From NCBI GenBank assembly GCA_025656505.1, contig JAHXHR010000030.1:1-33111 (forward strand): a DNA stretch of 33,111 nt. The letters are read 5' to 3'. The notes under the pieces were generated by a model. It saw only the letters and a program-made list of their open reading frames with translations. It had not been told where the DNA came from and did not search any database. The DNA is from Candidatus Thiodiazotropha sp. (ex Epidulcina cf. delphinae) (GTDB lineage: Bacteria > Pseudomonadota > Gammaproteobacteria > Chromatiales > Chromatiaceae). The translations under genes were made by a program, and so were the position numbers. This document shows, piece by piece, positions 4,273 to 15,000 of the stretch (position 1 is its first letter; each line of letters opens with the position of its first letter).

Positions 4273-6510
4273 TCATCCGGCGTCAGCGCCTCCATTCCGG
4301 TGATTGTTCTTGAGGCGGTGCTTGAAGTGATGCATGAGTTTTTCCCGCATGCGTTTTTCCCGGTGTTTCTTCGCTGCTTCCAGGCGTCGCTCGACGACGC
4401 CGACGAGGGTCTCCTGACAGTTGAGGGATTTATCGTCTTCGGCGGGCGTTCGTCGCAGATAAGTTCCGTCGGATTGCATATCCCAGGTGTTATGCTTGTC
4501 ACCGAGCTGAACATCGAGAATCAATCGCAGCTCTTGGCGCAACGCCTGCGACTCCACGGGCGCCAGCACCTCCACCCGCATCATGAGATTGCGCTGCATA
4601 AAATCGGCTGAGCCGATGAAATACTCCTCATCGCCGCCGTTGAGGAAATAGGTGATGCGTGCATGTTCGAGGAAACGTCCGACAACGCTGACCACGCTGC
4701 CGCTTTCGCTCAGTCCGGGAATGCCCGGTCGGAAGCGGCAGGTATCGCGCACGATCAGTTCCACCTTGACCCCGGCCTGGGTGGCTTTGTAGAGGGCCTT
4801 GACGATATCGTGATCCTCCAAGGCGTTCATCTTCATCTGGATATGGGCAGGCTTGCCTTGGATATGAATCCTGATCTCACGCTCGATCTTGTTCAGCAGG
4901 GCCTGCTTCAGGGTATACGGGGCCGCGAGGATCTTGCGATAACTGGGCGGCGGTGAGTAGCCGGTCAGGTAGTTGAACAGTTCGGTCAGGTCTTTGCCGA
5001 TCTCCTCGTCACAGCCGAATAGTCCAAGGTCGGTATAGAGCCGGGCTGTGCCCGCATGATAGTTGCCGGTGCCGACATGGTAGTAGCGGCGCAGTTGCGA
5101 GTAGTCTTTTCGGACGACCATGATGAGTTTGCTATGGGTCTTCAATCCGATGACCCCATAGGTGACATGTATGCCCGCCTGTTCCAGGCGTCTCGCCCAG
5201 CGGATGTTCGCCGCCTCATCGAAACGCGCCTTGAGCTCCACCAGCACCGCGACCTGTTTGCCGTTGCGGGCGGCCTTGGTCAGCGAGTCGAGCACATTGC
5301 CGTCGGCGGATGTGCGGTAAAGGGTCATCTTGATGGCCAGCACCTTTGGGTCTTCAGCCGCAGTGCGCAGGAAACGCTCGACCGTGGTATTGAAGGACTC
5401 GTAAGGGTGTTGCAATAACAGCGAACCCTGGTCGCGGATGATATGGAAGATGTTTCGCCGGTCATGGGCAAGCTGTGGATGATCGATGGGATGGTGGGGG
5501 GTGTCGTGCAGTTCAGGGATATTCAGCATGGCCAGTTCAAACAGGTCGCGCAGGGCCATCATGCAGTCGATCTCGAACACGTCCCGCTTTTCGTCGAGGC
5601 CCAGTTCGGCGGCCAGCATGCCGCGATGGGTGGGGTTCATACCCTTGGAAACCTCCAGGCGCACGATCGGCGCGAAATGGCGCTCCCGCAGTTCGGTCTC
5701 GATGGTCTCCAACAGGTCGCTGGCCGATTCCTGGTCGAGTTCCACATTGGCGTTGCGGGTGACCCGGAACAGCTCGCAGGATTCGATCTCCATTCCCGGA
5801 AACAGCATGTCGAGATTGTTAGCGATCAAGTCGTCGAGCGTGACATGGGTGTAGCTGTCGCCCACCTGGATCAAGCGCGGTGAAACCTCCTTGCTGACAG
5901 GCACCTTTACCCTCGCCATGTGCAGGTCGTGCCCACCCGGAAATCGCAGCGTGACAAGCAGATTGAGGGTCAGGTTGGAGATGAAGGGGAAGGGATGGCT
6001 GGGGTCCATCGCCAGTGGGGTCAGCATGGGGAAGATATTCAGTTGGAAATGGTCCCGCAACTGTTGTTGTTGAGATCCGTCCAATACCTGAAATTCGCTG
6101 ATGAGAATATCGGATTCAGCCAGCCGATCCAGCAGGTCGTTATAGATGCGTTGTTGCACCTGCTGCATGTCACGGGTGACCTGATGGCATTCGCTAAGCT
6201 GTTGGGTGGGTGTTCTGCCATCAACGGTGGGGGTGGTGAGGCCCGCAGCGACCTGCTGTTTCAGGCCGCCGATGCGCTTCATGAAAAACTCATCGAGGTT
6301 GTTGCTGACGATGGCGAGAAACTTGACCCTTTCAAGCAAGGGGTTTTGCTCCTGTTCCGCTTCATCCAGGACCCGTCGGTTGAAAGAGAGCCAGGTGAGT
6401 TCCCTGTTCAGGTAGAGGCTTGGATCATCCAGATCGATTCCGTGGCGCTGATCGTTACGATCATCGGCTGGGACTTCGCTGTTCGGTGGTATTTGTTCCG
6501 GCTGTGACAT
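4273..6510 (-). CDS. ppk1: polyphosphate kinase 1
   Basis: This enzyme reversibly transfers the terminal phosphate of ATP to polyphosphate. The 745 residues cover the N-terminal domain (LYLNRELTWLSFNRRVLDEA), the head domain, and the two phospholipase-D-like catalytic domains. Hallmarks include MKMTLYRTSADGNV, the catalytic-His segment GLKTHSKLIMV, HVGTGNYH, and the C-terminal FIGSADFMQRNLMMRVEV. The protein is about 55 residues longer than the E. coli enzyme, with a polar N-terminal extension of about 30 residues and a very basic C-terminal tail (KKHREKRMREKLMHHFKHR). No ppx gene adjoins it. It is separated by 164 bp from the upstream ApgM-like gene on the same strand. Confidence 0.97.
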   Translation of the reverse strand: MSQPEQIPPNSEVPADDRNDQRHGIDLDDPSLYLNRELTWLSFNRRVLDEAEQEQNPLLERVKFLAIVSNNLDEFFMKRIGGLKQQVAAGLTTPTVDGRTPTQQLSECHQVTRDMQQVQQRIYNDLLDRLAESDILISEFQVLDGSQQQQLRDHFQLNIFPMLTPLAMDPSHPFPFISNLTLNLLVTLRFPGGHDLHMARVKVPVSKEVSPRLIQVGDSYTHVTLDDLIANNLDMLFPGMEIESCELFRVTRNANVELDQESASDLLETIETELRERHFAPIVRLEVSKGMNPTHRGMLAAELGLDEKRDVFEIDCMMALRDLFELAMLNIPELHDTPHHPIDHPQLAHDRRNIFHIIRDQGSLLLQHPYESFNTTVERFLRTAAEDPKVLAIKMTLYRTSADGNVLDSLTKAARNGKQVAVLVELKARFDEAANIRWARRLEQAGIHVTYGVIGLKTHSKLIMVVRKDYSQLRRYYHVGTGNYHAGTARLYTDLGLFGCDEEIGKDLTELFNYLTGYSPPPSYRKILAAPYTLKQALLNKIEREIRIHIQGKPAHIQMKMNALEDHDIVKALYKATQAGVKVELIVRDTCRFRPGIPGLSESGSVVSVVGRFLEHARITYFLNGGDEEYFIGSADFMQRNLMMRVEVLAPVESQALRQELRLILDVQLGDKHNTWDMQSDGTYLRRTPAEDDKSLNCQETLVGVVERRLEAAKKHREKRMREKLMHHFKHRLKNNHRNGGADAG

Positions 6511-6674: not shown

Positions 6675-7949
6675 TCAGAAGAGAAAAGCGCTGTCTTTAG
6701 GTTTGAAGTTTTCCAGTTGGTTCATCTGATCCAGCATGGTCAATAGAAACCCGCTGCTGTTGATACGGCCCAGGCCACCCGCCGCGCACGCCAGTTCGGA
6801 AAAATGCCGGCATCCATCCGTTCTGCCGAGCGGGTTGTAGATCAGACTGGGAATAGGATCTCCGGTGTGTCGGCCTGTATTGGTGTCGGTGGAGTGGTCG
6901 GCGGTAATTGCGATGACCAGAGCGTCACTGATCAGCGGGGCAATGGCATCATCGATTTTAGCCAGCATCTCCCGTTTGCCTACCGGGTCCCGATCATGGG
7001 AATGGATATCCGTCGCTTTGATGTGCAGATAGACGATGTCGTGGTCATCCAGGGCCAGCATGGCTGTTTTTACCTTGCCGTTCAGGTCGGTATTCGGCAT
7101 GGCGGTAAAGCGATCATCCTTGAAAAGCGTGTAGCCCAATAGTTTTCCCAGTCCCAGCACGGTTTGCTCGCCTGAAATCACGGCCGTTTTGAGTTTGAGG
7201 GTTTTCAGCAGGGGCTTCAGTTTCGGGAGTCTTCCGGGGCTTCGGCAGATAATGCCGTTGGCGGGTGGCAGGCCCTTCTCGATCCTTTTGAGGTTGATCG
7301 GATGATGACGGAGCTTCTCATGGGTCGTATCCATCAGGCGGTTGACTGCATCGGAGGTTCTGACGGCTGAGCTGTCCAGCGGATCATTTGCATGGCAGCT
7401 CAATACCCCCTTGCTTCGGTAGCGATTTCCAGGGTCGGTATTGCTGATGTCATGCGACAGTCCTTCGCCGTTCAGTTGCAGGACTACGCGATGCTGAGTC
7501 GCAGGGTGCAGGCTGGCCGTGATGCCCCCTCCCAAGTCAAGTTGACCGACCTCGGCCGCCAGGCTGTCGGTTCCTGTATTGATCCGACCGGCTCTGCGAT
7601 CGAGGATGTGAAATCCGTTGTGGCTTTTTTCGAGAGTGGCGAAGTTACAGCGAAAAAACAGCGCTTTGTCGTCGTTATCCAGACCAACGCCGGAGGCTTC
7701 CACCGGTCCCCGTGCAAGTTTCATGGCTTGTTGTTTCGAGAGTCCCAGCAACAGGCATGTTCCGGTATGAGTGCCGACAGGCATGCCGGGGAAGAGCGGG
7801 TCGACTAAACCGCATTGCCCCGTGCTTGCGAGACTGTCCATATTCGGCGTGTCGGCAACTTCCAACGGGGTCTTGCCGCCGAAAGCGGGAATTCCCCGGT
7901 CTCCCAGGCCGTCCAATATGATCATCAGCCCCTTACGTATCGTGAGCAC
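6675..7949 (-). CDS. ApgM-like alkaline phosphatase superfamily enzyme
   Basis: This is a 424-residue relative of the archaeal-type cofactor-independent phosphoglycerate mutase. Metal-site motifs are visible: MIILDGLGDR with Asp13, DIHSHDRDPVGK, and TADHSTDTNTGRHTGDPIP. Substrate-site motifs FRCNFAT and DRRAGRI are also kept. However, the canonical nucleophile motif of the type PGSDxAHL reads VGTHTGTCLL, placing Thr60 where Ser is expected. Thr nucleophiles occur elsewhere in this superfamily, so the protein may be a phosphatase or an altered mutase. The start is GTG, with AGGAG about 10 bases upstream and an in-frame stop just before. The upstream neighbour on the same strand is 2-phosphoglycerate kinase, which points to phosphoglycerate chemistry. 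Confidence 0.82.
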   Translation of the reverse strand: MLTIRKGLMIILDGLGDRGIPAFGGKTPLEVADTPNMDSLASTGQCGLVDPLFPGMPVGTHTGTCLLLGLSKQQAMKLARGPVEASGVGLDNDDKALFFRCNFATLEKSHNGFHILDRRAGRINTGTDSLAAEVGQLDLGGGITASLHPATQHRVVLQLNGEGLSHDISNTDPGNRYRSKGVLSCHANDPLDSSAVRTSDAVNRLMDTTHEKLRHHPINLKRIEKGLPPANGIICRSPGRLPKLKPLLKTLKLKTAVISGEQTVLGLGKLLGYTLFKDDRFTAMPNTDLNGKVKTAMLALDDHDIVYLHIKATDIHSHDRDPVGKREMLAKIDDAIAPLISDALVIAITADHSTDTNTGRHTGDPIPSLIYNPLGRTDGCRHFSELACAAGGLGRINSSGFLLTMLDQMNQLENFKPKDSAFLF

Positions 7950-8190
7950 GGCTCAACTACTCCTGCAAAATTGTATTGACGGGTTCAAGCGAGCCGGAAA
8001 GCCTGGGGGGAGGCAACCTTGGAGCGCACCTTCAGGGAACGCCTTTGTAGGGCTTACGCAATAAAGCGATAGCCGTGCTTTTTTTCTTTTCGGAAAGCAC
8101 CTTGTACCCTTGAATGCAACATATCAGGTCGCCGGGTTAATGGCTTTGAACCCATCATTATATCTTTGTGAGAAGCACTAAACCCGATTG

Positions 8191-9384
8191 TCAGTCTATA
8201 CTGAAAACGTCTTCCACACTAGCATGAAAACCCTTTTCCAACACCTCTATGATCGAGCGCATGACCCGGTCTGTGGTCTTATCCTTTTCGTCGTTGGCGA
8301 TGATCGGAATGGCGTTGTTGTCCGCTTCCGACAGGAGATGGGACTGAAGCATCCAGATCGATTCGAAATTGGAAAGGTAGTCACTGTGAGCATTTCGCTC
8401 AGGCGCCGAAATGCCTCGGTCTTTTAAATGGTGCTTGAGCCGATCCGGTTTGAGCACCGCCAGCATGATGGGTACGATGACGGCATTTTCCGTGTCCTGA
8501 AAGCGATTGACCAGGGCGGGCGAGATGTGGACGCCTTCCAGGATCAGAGAGACCCGTTCACTCAAGGCGCGTTGCACGACCGCTTCGCAGGGGACTGCAA
8601 CCAATTCGGACTGATGGATATAGCCATGTATCATCATCTCTTCAGGCGTCTCTTTGGTATCGCCCGAGCCGAGAATCTTGCGCCAGGCATTAAAAGACGA
8701 GGTGTGCAGTTCCGGTATTAATCGCTCAGGTACCATCATGCGCATCACTTCACGCAGCATGTCGGTGGATTGGGTTCGAATAATATTCAGACGGTGCGCC
8801 GCCTCTGTGGCGATGGTGCTCTTACCGCTGCCGGTGGTGCCCCCGATCAACAGGATCAGCGGCCGCTGGCTGTGTTTATAGTCGATCCAGACCAGATAGT
8901 GTTTCGCGGCCTCTTTTCCGTAGTGTTGCCTGAGCTTTTCGTAAGTCAATCTGCCAATGGCGTTGCTGCCTATCTCTTCCTGATAGGATTCAGCCGACTC
9001 AAGGTACACAATCTGTGAAATATAAGCCGCCTTATCCGAACTGAGACCGGTGGATTCAAGTGTGCGACGGTGCTCGGTGATGGAGAATGGGAGCGTCGAG
9101 CCCTTGCGGTCACGCACGATGATATTGGTCGATGTCGGATTGATGCTTTCATAGTTTTCGATAACCTCTCTTTCATCCAGAGTGTGTAGCTCGCTCAACA
9201 CCAAACGGCGCAATTCCTGGGTGGTGATTTCGTCTTTTCCGCTGATCTTTTGTCGTATCTCGGAAGAGAGCCGATAGCCTGTTTCGAAAGAGAGCCCGGC
9301 ATCGGTCAGAGAACGGGTCAGGATGCCTCTGAGAAAGGGAGTGCGTGTTCCGTCCGTGGGGTCGATTATAAGTGTCTTTGCCAT
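8191..9384 (-). CDS. 2-phosphoglycerate kinase (ATP-cone plus P-loop kinase)
   Basis: In methanogens this family phosphorylates 2-phosphoglycerate to 2,3-bisphosphoglycerate, the precursor of cyclic 2,3-diphosphoglycerate. The 397 residues show an N-terminal ATP-cone-like region (TPFLRGILTRSLTDAGLSFE, about residues 15-95) and a P-loop kinase domain with GGTTGSGKST near residue 183. Further kinase features follow, such as the strand SLILEGVHISP. Length and architecture match the archaeal enzyme. It lies 241 bp upstream of the ApgM-like gene on the same strand. No cyclic 2,3-diphosphoglycerate synthetase is seen in the window. Some bacterial members may act on other small phosphate acceptors, so the substrate is assigned by family only. 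Confidence 0.85.
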   Translation of the reverse strand: MAKTLIIDPTDGTRTPFLRGILTRSLTDAGLSFETGYRLSSEIRQKISGKDEITTQELRRLVLSELHTLDEREVIENYESINPTSTNIIVRDRKGSTLPFSITEHRRTLESTGLSSDKAAYISQIVYLESAESYQEEIGSNAIGRLTYEKLRQHYGKEAAKHYLVWIDYKHSQRPLILLIGGTTGSGKSTIATEAAHRLNIIRTQSTDMLREVMRMMVPERLIPELHTSSFNAWRKILGSGDTKETPEEMMIHGYIHQSELVAVPCEAVVQRALSERVSLILEGVHISPALVNRFQDTENAVIVPIMLAVLKPDRLKHHLKDRGISAPERNAHSDYLSNFESIWMLQSHLLSEADNNAIPIIANDEKDKTTDRVMRSIIEVLEKGFHASVEDVFSID

Positions 9385-9461: not shown

Positions 9462-11195
9462 TTAGTGATTTTCCCAGACGTAGATCACCTCTGCCTTATT
9501 TCCCGGCTCGTAAAAGTGAAGTTGTTTACAGAGTGATTCCACTAACATGAGGCCTCGGCCGCTGTAGGTGTCCTCATTCGCCACGAAACGTTTCAGCGCC
9601 TTGAAGTCGAATCCGTTGCCGCTGTCTTCTATCGATATCAGGATATACCCCCCGTCAATTAGCTGATGGATTCTTAAACCGATGCGAATCCGGCCTTCGG
9701 TTAAGGCATGGAGGCGCTGTTCCCGCTGTTGGAAGTAGTTGGTGAAACCATCCTCACCCTGTTTAATGGCGGAGTCCAGACGCAGCACACCATGATCCAG
9801 GGCATTGATATAGAGTTCGGTAAGAATGGTGAATAGGGGGCGTCGGTGTTCGTGGAGCCCGGCGGTTTCTTGGATATAGTTGATCAGGATCGGTACCGGG
9901 TCGGCCTGCCGTAATTGGGAGCCGTACAGGATGAGTTGGAACTCGATGCAGTCGGGATGATCCTGCATCAATAGCGCTTCCGGTAGATCCTTGCTGACCT
10001 CGATACGGTCCGTGGTTGTCTCCCATCCCGGCAACAACGCATGGATCAACGGCACCTCGACTACGCTGATATCATCATCTTGAGGCGCGTTTTGACAAAA
10101 CGATTCAAGATCCAGGGCGAGTTTGTCGAGGATGTAGGGGTGAGAGGCGCTGTTATTGATGACCCGGATAAATCGCTGCTGACCGAAGTACTCACCTTCA
10201 CTATTGCGCGCTTCGGTGACTCCGTCAGTGGCGAGAATCACCCGATCCCCCTCTTTGATGCGCAGATGGTGAAATTCATCCTTGAAATTGATGTCGGAGG
10301 CAATACCGAGCGGCAGGGATTGGGAAGTGATACGCTCTTTGATGCGCCTGCTGTCATTTTCGATGAGATAGCAATCGGGCATGCCGCAATTGATAATCGT
10401 AATATGATCGAGGTGGTGATCGACCTTGACAAACTGCGCGGCCAGGAACATTCCCGTTGGTAATAGGCTGTGTAGTTTGTTATTGATGGCATAGAGAATC
10501 TGTTGTGGGGCGAAACCTTTGGCCGTCATGGAGCGGAAGACCTCGGAGGTGGGTAGGGCGCCCAAGGCCGCCGCCAGACCGTGACCGGTGAAGTCACCTA
10601 GCAACACATGCAGATCATGGGAAGGTGCAAACGCCGTCAGCATCAAGTCACCGCTGAAAACGCTGGCCGGCCTGAGCAGGCTGTGGATATGTTCGAGGGC
10701 GACATTCCCGGCGACCACCGCGCCGCTGAAGACCTGTTCCGCAATCTCTTCATCCCGCTGCATGCGGCTGTAGAGCATACGAGTATCCTGATGCAGGGTA
10801 CGGATACGCTCCATCGCTTTTACCTTTGCCGAGAGAACCGTGAAGCTGTAAGGCTTTGAGAGGAAATCATCACCCCCCACCTCAATGCATCGCGCCAACG
10901 CCTGTTCGTCAGACATTGCTGTCAGAAAAATGATCGGCACGAAATGGTTGCCGGCCAACTGTTTGATGCGTGTCGCTGCTTCGTAACCGTCCATGACAGG
11001 CATCATGACATCCATGAAAATGATGTCTGGGCTGCGCTTCTCAAACTGCTTTACGGCATCGACGCCGTTTTCCGCCTCAATAACCTGATAGCCCTGTTTT
11101 TTCAGCAGTTTCTTGAGAATCAGGCGGTTTGTAATCTCATCCTCGACGATGAGCGCAATTCTTTGATTTGGAGAGAGATGTGCAATCTTTAGCAT
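9462..11195 (-). CDS. response regulator with PP2C phosphatase and HATPase domains (HsbR/CrsR-like)
   Basis: This is a 577-residue cytoplasmic protein with three domains. The receiver domain (residues about 12-130) has Asp62 in IIFMDVMMPVMDGYEAA and a Lys in FLSKPYSF. After a short helical linker comes a SpoIIE-type PP2C phosphatase with SGDL, LGDFTGHGLAAALG, ATDGVTEAR and DDDISVVEV. The C-terminus is an RsbW-like ATPase with ILTELYINALDHG, ISIEDSGNGFD and GRGLMLVESL. The architecture matches Pseudomonas HsbR and Shewanella CrsR, which switch a STAS-domain anti-sigma antagonist by phosphorylation and dephosphorylation to control a general stress sigma factor. No STAS gene or sigma factor lies beside it here, so the partner must be elsewhere if it exists. 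Confidence 0.9.
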   Translation of the reverse strand: MLKIAHLSPNQRIALIVEDEITNRLILKKLLKKQGYQVIEAENGVDAVKQFEKRSPDIIFMDVMMPVMDGYEAATRIKQLAGNHFVPIIFLTAMSDEQALARCIEVGGDDFLSKPYSFTVLSAKVKAMERIRTLHQDTRMLYSRMQRDEEIAEQVFSGAVVAGNVALEHIHSLLRPASVFSGDLMLTAFAPSHDLHVLLGDFTGHGLAAALGALPTSEVFRSMTAKGFAPQQILYAINNKLHSLLPTGMFLAAQFVKVDHHLDHITIINCGMPDCYLIENDSRRIKERITSQSLPLGIASDINFKDEFHHLRIKEGDRVILATDGVTEARNSEGEYFGQQRFIRVINNSASHPYILDKLALDLESFCQNAPQDDDISVVEVPLIHALLPGWETTTDRIEVSKDLPEALLMQDHPDCIEFQLILYGSQLRQADPVPILINYIQETAGLHEHRRPLFTILTELYINALDHGVLRLDSAIKQGEDGFTNYFQQREQRLHALTEGRIRIGLRIHQLIDGGYILISIEDSGNGFDFKALKRFVANEDTYSGRGLMLVESLCKQLHFYEPGNKAEVIYVWENH

Positions 11196-12038: not shown

Positions 12039-15000
12039 TCAGTCACTGTTTCCCGCATCGGCGATATTTACTTTCTTCCCGACAGGCTCCACGGATTTTT
12101 TGACCTCTGCCTTGGACTCTGCAGGTAAGGGTTTCTGCTGCGGAACCGTTTCAATGCCGGTCTGGGTTTTAACCACCTTAACCGCCGAAGGCTCGGTCTT
12201 GGCCGACTCGGTCTTGGCAGGCTCGGTCTTAGCCGACTCGGTCTTAGCCGACTCGGTCTTGGCAGGCTCGGTCTTAGCCGACTCGGTCTTGGCCGACTCG
12301 GTCTTGGCCGACTCGGTCTTGGCAGGCTCGGTCTTGGCCGACACGGTCTTGGCAGGCTCGGTCTTGGCCGACACGGTCTTGGCAGGCTCGGTCTTGGCAG
12401 GCTCGGTCTTGGCCGACACGGTCTTGGCCGACACGGTCTTGGCCGACACGGTCTTGGCCGACACGGTCTTGGCCGACACGGTCTTGGCCGACACGGTCTT
12501 GGCCGACTCGGTCTTGGCCGACTCGGTCTTGGTAGGTTCGGGCGGAGGAGGGACTGTAGCAGGCTTTACGGTTTCGACCTGCTGCAGCTTTCGAGGAGCA
12601 GGCTTGGCTGCCGGCCGGCTTGCGGATGCCGTGGCTTTGCCTGAGTTGGCGCCATGCGCCTTTTTTTCAACCACCTGGGCGGCATCGGTCTGAATGGCCC
12701 TCGATTGGAGGTCGGGCCGGTTTTCGGCAGGTTTGGTCGTCTCTATCTGGACAGGCTTCAACGGACTTTCATCAGTTGCAGGCACGGTGGACTCCCGTTT
12801 CCGGGGCGGCCTAACCGATGTCTTGGTTTCGGATCTTGGCGTTCGCTGTGGAGCAACTCGCTTTTGCGGACGGGGTTGACGCTTTTCTTTATCCGCCATG
12901 GCCTCATTGGCGATGTTATCCGATTTGCCGTCAGAGACAGCCTTGACCGCTGATGGTTCACCGTTTCGCTCGGTACCGGTGCGGCGCTTGCGACCACCAC
13001 GCCGACCTCGGCGGGATTTCGGCTTGCTGATCTCACCGGTCTCGGTTTCCGCGTGTGTCTTGGCCTGTTCCGGTGGCTTTTGCTCCACGATTCGCTTGTC
13101 GGCGACTTTTTTCTCACCGGCCGTCGGTTTGGCGTTTCGCCGCTTGTTGACGGTGGCCTCCTGGGAACGGCCTTCACCACGCTCGTCACGTCGGTTGCCG
13201 CCGCCGGTCGGTTTGCGGTCACGTCCGTCGGAGAGCTGGTTTCTTCGGGTTTTCCTGGCAGACGAGTCACCACCGTCCTGGGCCGGTCTCTGTTTTTTCG
13301 TTTCCACCACCGGTTCGGCCCCAGACGTTGCCGACTCCACGCTTTTCGGTGAGAAAATATTGAAGATCTTTTTCAGAAACCCGGACTCGCCCGCTTCCCC
13401 GTCGGCTTGTACCGGATCTGTCCGTTGGGGAACGGGGCTGGCCGGCTCGATGGATTTCACCGCGGGCTGTTCCGCCTTGGATTGTTTGGGCTTGCCGGGT
13501 TCCGACACTTCGGCGGCGTTCTCTTCAGAGACCATCCTGTAGCTCGAAACACCCTCCTCTTCAGATGGCATGTCGCTGACACGTATGCGTTCAATGCCGT
13601 AGTTGGGCGTCTCCAGGTGGACGTTGGGTATCAGCACCACATCGATGGATTGGCGTTGTTCGACGTCGTGAATCATCTGGCGCTTTTCGTTCAGCAGGAA
13701 TGTAGCCATATCGACGGGGAGTTGCGCCATGATACGACCGGTATTCTCCTTCATCGCCTCCTCTTCGATAATCCGCAGCACCGACAGTGAAAGCGACTCA
13801 ACCCCACGAACGGTGCCATGCCCCTTGCATCGAGGGCAGACCTGCTCGCTGGCCTCTCCCAGGGAAGGGCGTAGGCGCTGCCTGGACATCTCCAGCAAGC
13901 CGAAGCGGGAGATTCGGCCGACCTGGACCCTGGCGCGATCCTGTTTGAGCGCCTCTTTGAGCCGGTTCTCCACCTCTCGCTGGCTGCGGGAGGGGGTCAT
14001 ATCGATGAAATCGATGACGAACAGGCCGCCAAGGTCACGCAAGCGCAGTTGGCGGGCGATCTCGTCGGCTGCTTCGAGATTGGTGTTCAGCGCGGTCTCT
14101 TCAATATCGGCGCCCTTGGTGGCGCGGGCGGAGTTGATATCGATGGAGGTCAATGCTTCGGTGTGATCGATGACGATGGCGCCGCCGGAAGGCAGGCTGA
14201 CCTCCCGTTGGAAAGCCGATTCGATCTGGCTCTCGATCTGATAGCGGCTGAATAGGGGAACCTCATCATCATAGTGGCGCAACTTCTTGCCGTATTGCGG
14301 CATCACCTGATTGATGAAGCGCTCCGCCTGACTGTATACATCCGTATCATCGATCACAATCTCGCCGATATCCGCACGCAGATAGTCGCGTATCGAGCGA
14401 ATGATGACATTGCTCTCCTGATAGATCAGAAATGGGGCGGGTTTATCGGCTGAGTGTTCGATGGCCTGCCAGAGCTGGATCAGGTAGTCCAGATCCCATT
14501 GCAGCTCCTCTGCATTCTTGCCCACGCCGGCGGTGCGAACGATCAGTCCCATGTCATCCTGGATCTGCAGTTCGCTCATGGCTTCACGCAGCTCGGTACG
14601 GTCCTGACCCTCGATTCGGCGGGAGACGCCGCCGGCCCGGGGGTTGTTCGGCATCAGCACAAGATATCGGCCCGCCAGGGAGATGAAGGTGGTGAGCGCG
14701 GCCCCTTTGTTGCCACGCTCTTCCTTCTCGACCTGGACAACGATCTCCTGCCCCTCCTTGATCGCCTCTTGAATATTCACCCGGCCCGAGGATTCCCTCG
14801 CCTTGTCGGTAAAGTAGTTTCTGGCGATCTCTTTGAGGGGGAGGAAGCCATGGCGTTCTGACCCATAGTCGATGAAGGCGGCTTCAAGGCTCGGTTCTAC
14901 GCGGGTGATACGCCCTTTGTAGATGTTGGCCTTTTTTTGTTCCCGGCCGGGAATTTCAATGTCCAGATTGAATAGTTTTTGACCATCGACGATGGCAACG

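Follow-up and report, generated by a model that had tools for sequence, protein, structure and literature searches.

A threonine-nucleophile relative of ApgM is linked to 2-phosphoglycerate kinase and phosphate genes in bacteria, suggesting a 2,3-bisphosphoglycerate module

A 2-phosphoglycerate kinase (2PGK) homologue and a relative of the phosphoglycerate mutase ApgM that carries Thr in place of the Ser nucleophile occur together as neighbouring genes or as one fused protein, and we regard their functional linkage as near certain. We read the two as a 2,3-bisphosphoglycerate (2,3-BPG) module tied to phosphate handling, in which the kinase would make 2,3-BPG and the Thr enzyme would hydrolyse it through a phospho-Thr, and we put the probability of this reading at about one half; the substrates, the hydrolysis and the physiological role are what we infer. 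The protein families were known already. The Thr subfamily itself, the way it is paired or fused with the kinase, and its phosphate context appear to be undescribed in the literature searched, which lay largely outside subscription journals and contained nothing linking 2PGK to Pst or polyphosphate and nothing describing the fusion. A preliminary description of this DNA had proposed such a pathway: our analysis supports the functional unit and the phosphate link and adds that Thr tracks the kinase, whereas the 2,3-BPG chemistry is carried forward as a proposal.

The window, meaning the whole stretch of DNA analysed, is a 33-kb contig in a 3.43-Mb draft genome whose nearest relatives belong to Candidatus Thiodiazotropha, a group of sulfur oxidisers that live in symbiosis with lucinid clams. 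On its minus strand a response-regulator/SpoIIE protein, the kinase, the ApgM relative and ppk1 are encoded in that order, with the following features:

9462..11195, minus strand: response regulator, SpoIIE phosphatase and HATPase protein, upstream of the kinase (domain scan)
8191..9384, minus strand: 2PGK homologue, 397 aa, with two N-terminal ATP-cones and a P-loop kinase domain (open reading frame, domain and profile matches)
8875..9120, minus strand: second ATP-cone, residues 89-170, the first ATP-cone lying N-terminal to it (Pfam PF03477, two stretches)
8815..8844, minus strand: Walker A motif or P-loop GGTTGSGKST, residues 181-190 (invariant residues in homologues)
7950..8190, minus strand: gap between kinase and ApgM relative, 241 bp (sequence)
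6675..7949, minus strand: ApgM relative with predicted Thr nucleophile, 424 aa (open reading frame, Metalloenzyme and PhosphMutase domains, TIGR00306)
7770..7772, minus strand: Thr60 codon, at the catalytic Ser position and the N terminus of helix 60-67 (alignment and AlphaFold model)
6867..7913, minus strand: span of the metal ligands D13, D314, H318, D351, H352 and H361 (alignment)
4273..6510, minus strand: ppk1, polyphosphate kinase 1, 745 aa, directly downstream on the same strand as the pair (open reading frame, family match)

Open reading frames with matches to the named families bear out the earlier placement of a 2PGK beside an ApgM relative, and of ppk1 directly downstream on the same strand. 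The ApgM relative begins with GTG just downstream of an AGGAG ribosome-binding site, the 241-bp gap holds no terminator-like site on the minus strand, and in many relatives the gap is short or the two genes overlap; an Rfam search for RNA elements near the pair returned no match. The upstream response regulator, SpoIIE and HATPase gene is kept in Thiodiazotropha, and ppk1 lies downstream of the pair in all Thiodiazotropha loci that extend far enough. An anti-sigma-type HATPase and a STAS protein lie ahead of the pair in two Acidobacteriota loci (L244, 2445-3252; L038, 269-1067), an arrangement that recalls the SpoIIE/HATPase protein of the window. Also in the window, the C-terminal part (12039-12700, minus strand) of an RNase E/G-like open reading frame is made up of consecutive [15 protein letters not shown] repeats.

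By profile comparison the kinase is a clear 2PGK homologue, though it scores under the curated equivalog cut-offs (264 bits against 343 for PRK04220; 256 bits against 603 for PRK12337). Its ATP-cone and P-loop layout is that of 2PGK and is shared with the methanogen enzyme (COG2074, PRK04220; PRK12337 in bacteria), from which it differs in having one ATP-cone more than the 306-aa PRK04220 model, in being paired with a Thr-type ApgM near phosphate genes, and in usually lacking a nearby cyclic 2,3-diphosphoglycerate (cDPG) synthetase. G182, G185, G187, K188 and S189 of the P-loop are invariant in 12 homologues and likewise in 20. For an AlphaFold model (mean pLDDT 86), the structural matches are folds of the adenylate kinase type for the kinase part and class I ribonucleotide reductase for the cones.

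The ApgM relative had been proposed to carry Thr where the Ser nucleophile is expected, and structural alignment agrees. A gap-free alignment pairs its VGTHTG with AGSDTA in the Pyrococcus structure 2zkt and with CGSDTS in the Thermoplasma structures 3idd/3kd8, placing Thr60 at the Ser nucleophile position. In the AlphaFold model (mean pLDDT 94.8; top PDB match 2zkt, E 3.4e-39) Thr60 starts a helix, which together with the ungapped alignments to three structures rules out a misalignment; conservation of the Thr across phyla rules out a sequencing or annotation artefact. The Thr is invariant in all kinase-linked homologues examined, and the residues beside it drift (THT, TDI, TDV, TAA, TAS). 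The protein scores above the cut-off of the TIGR00306 apgM subfamily (337.9 against 320 bits) and below those of the PRK04024 equivalog (352.5 against 489), of NF038358 for the PhpG phosphonoformyl transferase (208.7 against 545) and of the phosphopentomutase models PRK05362 (19.7 against 256) and PRK12383 (20.7 against 254).

The metal and substrate motifs are kept, as had been claimed. The six metal ligands are identical across Thr- and Ser-type proteins wherever the column is present, preserving the two-metal site, and they match the set of nematode iPGM (PMC5382265). The Arg, His, Asn and Lys residues of the phosphoglycerate pocket that we compared are the same in 42 Thr and 10 Ser proteins, except for R222, which differs in two of the 42. 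What separates the two types is the change of Ser to Thr, mostly accompanied by changes of Asp at +1 and His at +4, plus distant positions. The Thr enzyme shares with ApgM (TIGR00306; 2zkt, 3idd, 3kd8) the fold, the metal ligands and the phosphoglycerate-binding residues, and departs from it in its nucleophile, in the loss of His at +4 in most members, in having a 2PGK homologue as constant neighbour or fusion partner, and in not being its genome's glycolytic mutase. A Ser-to-Thr change in a nearly unchanged pocket would amount to a natural experiment in which a mutase becomes something else within the alkaline phosphatase superfamily.

The linkage of Thr to the kinase holds in ApgM loci from three sets: 84,980 species genomes, 297 Acidobacteriota genomes, and a held-out test set of the phyla of L041 and L032, unused in earlier searches. 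In total, 63 of 66 Thr-type loci have the kinase as neighbour or fusion partner, the other three lying at contig ends, against 0 of 94 Ser-type loci; three genomes are counted twice in these totals (L036/L177, L041/L247, L032/L267), the tallies, like the E-values, are sample-based, MAG labels may be mistaken, and contigs end near several loci. The species-genome scan yielded 80 ApgM loci, 34 Thr and 46 Ser, with the kinase adjoining 33 of the former (a contig end marks the start of the remaining one) and none of the latter. Among 30 loci read from the Acidobacteriota genomes, 21 are Thr and 9 Ser, and most of these Thr proteins are the C-terminal half of one long protein whose N-terminal half is the kinase; such fusions, found in Acidobacteriota and Planctomycetota, run to ~740-900 aa. 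The held-out phyla contributed 11 Thr loci, with the kinase within 1.5 kb in nine, the kinase farther upstream in one (L297) and the locus cut by the contig end in one (L254), and 39 Ser loci, none with the kinase in the stretch read. Across the window's own order (147 genomes), the kinase is present in all 46 genomes with a strong ApgM match; seven genomes have the kinase only and six a weak ApgM match only. Conserved adjacency and natural fusion mark the two genes as a real functional unit, and the fusions make the idea testable with a single recombinant protein. The Thr proteins form one clade (tree support 98 and 100), which points to one long-kept evolutionary event and not many independent ones; the link between Thr and kinase may reflect that single event.

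A canonical GpmI is encoded in 34 of 34 Thr-ApgM genomes tested, so that glycolysis would not need the Thr enzyme. In the window's genome GpmI reads NSEVGH, with a Ser nucleophile, ruling out the Thr enzyme as sole housekeeping mutase. No GpmA-type mutase was recognised in that genome: its two His_Phos_1 matches, read from sequence, are unlike GpmA, one being a SixA-like domain before a Nudix-like region, and a role for 2,3-BPG there as GpmA cofactor is likewise ruled out. In line with the scarcity found in this analysis, a 2008 survey of 184 gammaproteobacterial genomes detected no archaeal-type iPGM (PMC2964296). The preliminary description had asked for a standard mutase elsewhere in the genome and had named two findings that would count against it, a conserved Ser at the nucleophile position and ordinary mutase activity in a genome with no other mutase; the position is without Ser and the genome has another mutase. 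We consider it very unlikely that the pair is a second, Thr-tolerant phosphoglycerate mutase beside an unrelated kinase. Retention of the pocket and passage of the apgM subfamily cut-off would suit such an enzyme, but the Thr tracks the kinase, fusions occur, the His at +4 is gone in most members, the same genomes carry GpmI, and the alkaline phosphatase of E. coli does not tolerate Thr in place of its Ser (PMC3145672).

In the module that we favour, adenine nucleotides at the ATP-cones would gate the kinase, which most likely phosphorylates 2-phosphoglycerate (2-PG) to 2,3-BPG under that control. The ApgM relative would bind the phosphoglycerate skeleton in its unchanged pocket, with Thr60 as the metal-bound nucleophile, and most likely takes a phosphoryl off 2,3-BPG, or off the cyclic form where this is made, through a phospho-Thr60 intermediate, passing it to water or to another phosphoglycerate. 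Transfer to water would yield monophosphoglycerate and Pi, and the two enzymes would together fix the level of 2,3-BPG, a pool that would buffer phosphate or report on it. Precedents exist for both fates of the phosphoryl: Thr89 of the alkaline phosphatase SPAP supports phosphomonoester hydrolysis in this superfamily (PMC3145672) and Thr85 is an active-site residue of phosphopentomutase (DeoB; PMC11641776), leaving room for hydrolysis and for bisphosphate-primed transfer. SPAP and the NPP phosphodiesterases share superfamily and Thr nucleophile with the Thr enzyme, although SPAP is an alkaline-phosphatase-type phosphomonoesterase whereas the Thr enzyme retains a specific phosphoglycerate pocket.

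Structure comparison finds phosphopentomutases as the next solved folds after ApgM, with a different substrate pocket and profile scores of ~20 of 254-256 bits. Phosphopentomutase works by a bisphosphate mechanism. By analogy, 2,3-BPG might load the Thr enzyme with a phosphoryl group, and the resulting phospho-Thr form might swap phosphoryl groups between 2-PG and 3-PG, with the kinase supplying the priming bisphosphate. Such a mutase would predict obligate pairing with a bisphosphate-making kinase and is in keeping with the fold, the active-site Thr and the DTHTG or DTAAG read at the nucleophile in several homologues. We nevertheless judge it unlikely, as an extra mutase needs a reason in genomes that already have GpmI, and priming leaves the phosphate neighbourhood unexplained.

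The preliminary description had seen no cDPG synthetase, which is true of the window, of the surroundings of all pairs other than L297 and L254, and of about 0.4 Mb (~12%) of the window's genome outside the window, but not of Planctomycetota relatives, where a synthetase lies between the two genes. The planctomycete contig L297 has the order 2PGK, cDPG synthetase (PDB 8ork, E 7.6e-113), Thr-ApgM, and in L254 a synthetase stands beside Thr-ApgM at the contig edge. These synthetases tie the Thr enzyme to 2,3-BPG and cDPG, and the gene order of L297 indicates that the module belongs to the metabolism of these compounds in at least some members. The published cDPG pathway (2PGK and cDPG synthetase, 8ork) has no Thr-ApgM partner; the window and most pairs share its 2PGK homologue but have no synthetase nearby, whereas L297 combines all three in one operon. 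A small CBS-domain protein adjoins Thr-ApgM in L239 (10202-10669) and in L297 (4508-4990, CBS-like by eye).

Thr is the usual nucleophile of phosphodiesterases of the alkaline phosphatase superfamily (NPP). The Thr enzyme might hydrolyse cDPG itself and so provide the breakdown step that the cDPG pathway lacks; a cDPG hydrolase activity is known from a methanogen (PMC1224877). L297 and L254, together with L178, form the Thr branch closest to the Ser enzymes in the tree, which would agree with that role; we think it quite improbable, given that neither the surroundings of the other pairs nor the ~12% of the window's genome searched outside the window yielded a synthetase. If the 2,3-BPG module is real, the Thr branch would give the pathway a first identified gene for breaking down 2,3-BPG or cDPG, and the module supplies a named candidate for the degradative step.

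The phosphate link drawn earlier from ppk1 is real and extends beyond it to Pst, PhoU, Pit, Na/Pi and ppk2. One or more genes for ppk1, ppk2, Pst, PhoU, Pit or Na/Pi lie within 6 kb at 39 of 53 pair loci (a few of them repeats of one genome), compared with 0 of 40 for Ser-ApgM and 0 of 20 for GpmI control loci from the same genomes; at 14 of the 53 a phosphate gene is absent from the flank examined. In held-out Planctomycetota, Pst or Na/Pi is nearby at all seven pairs or fusions with enough flank and at 0 of 3 Ser controls. The layout varies with lineage: besides the ppk1 downstream of the pair in Thiodiazotropha, a Pst operon follows the pair in L019, L027, L029, L030, L032 and L033, whereas Pit, PhoU-like and ppk2 genes precede it in L020 and L023, and L024 carries a related set. 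Acidobacteriota call for caution, as many of their fusions lack any phosphate gene within about 9 kb and such neighbours are confined to the L239 pair and some fusions (L229, L235). Buffering or reporting of phosphate by a 2,3-BPG pool would account for the association of the genes with Pi transporters, PhoU and polyphosphate kinases.

In bacteria 2,3-BPG is usually regarded as a cofactor of mutases, and cDPG is usually considered particular to hot methanogens. A plausible but tentative generalization is that 2,3-BPG serves as a phosphate-linked store or signal in several bacterial phyla, made by an ATP-cone-gated 2-PG kinase and consumed by a new Thr branch of ApgM, sometimes as one bifunctional enzyme; bacteria living at ordinary temperatures would then have a phosphate buffer or signal built on bisphosphoglycerate. 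Along with the gene context, two points from the literature support a storage role: the proposal that methanogens store carbon and phosphate as cDPG (PMC1224877), and the effect of the rice 2PGK homologue LPA1 (OsPGK1) on phytate and seed phosphorus storage (PMC4844318). LPA1 resembles the kinase of the pair in its tie to phosphorus storage and differs in being a plant protein with no ApgM partner described in the literature searched. Because LPA1 is proposed to be an inositol monophosphate kinase (PMC4844318) and the present kinase scores under the equivalog cut-offs, one could suppose that the latter phosphorylates a small phosphate other than 2-PG, for instance an inositol phosphate, and that the Thr enzyme acts on the product. 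The phosphoglycerate-pocket residues retained by the ApgM partner and the cDPG synthetase in the L297 operon make this highly improbable.

The kinase can apparently also work alone: a small clade nested among the paired kinases (L129, L131, L132) has no Thr-ApgM nearby and mostly keeps phosphate neighbours, namely Pit, PhoU-like, Na/Pi or CNNM transporter genes. A second kinase paralogue without ApgM, present in the window's family, overlaps or abuts a ~630-680-aa protein (L118, 7694-10818; L120; L122-L125); this partner is ruled out as a new enzyme, being a CHASE-domain sensor histidine kinase in the three scanned. Beside a Pst operon in L127 (6956-9380), the kinase and Thr-ApgM are split over several frames, which looks like decay of this copy or a fault in the assembly.
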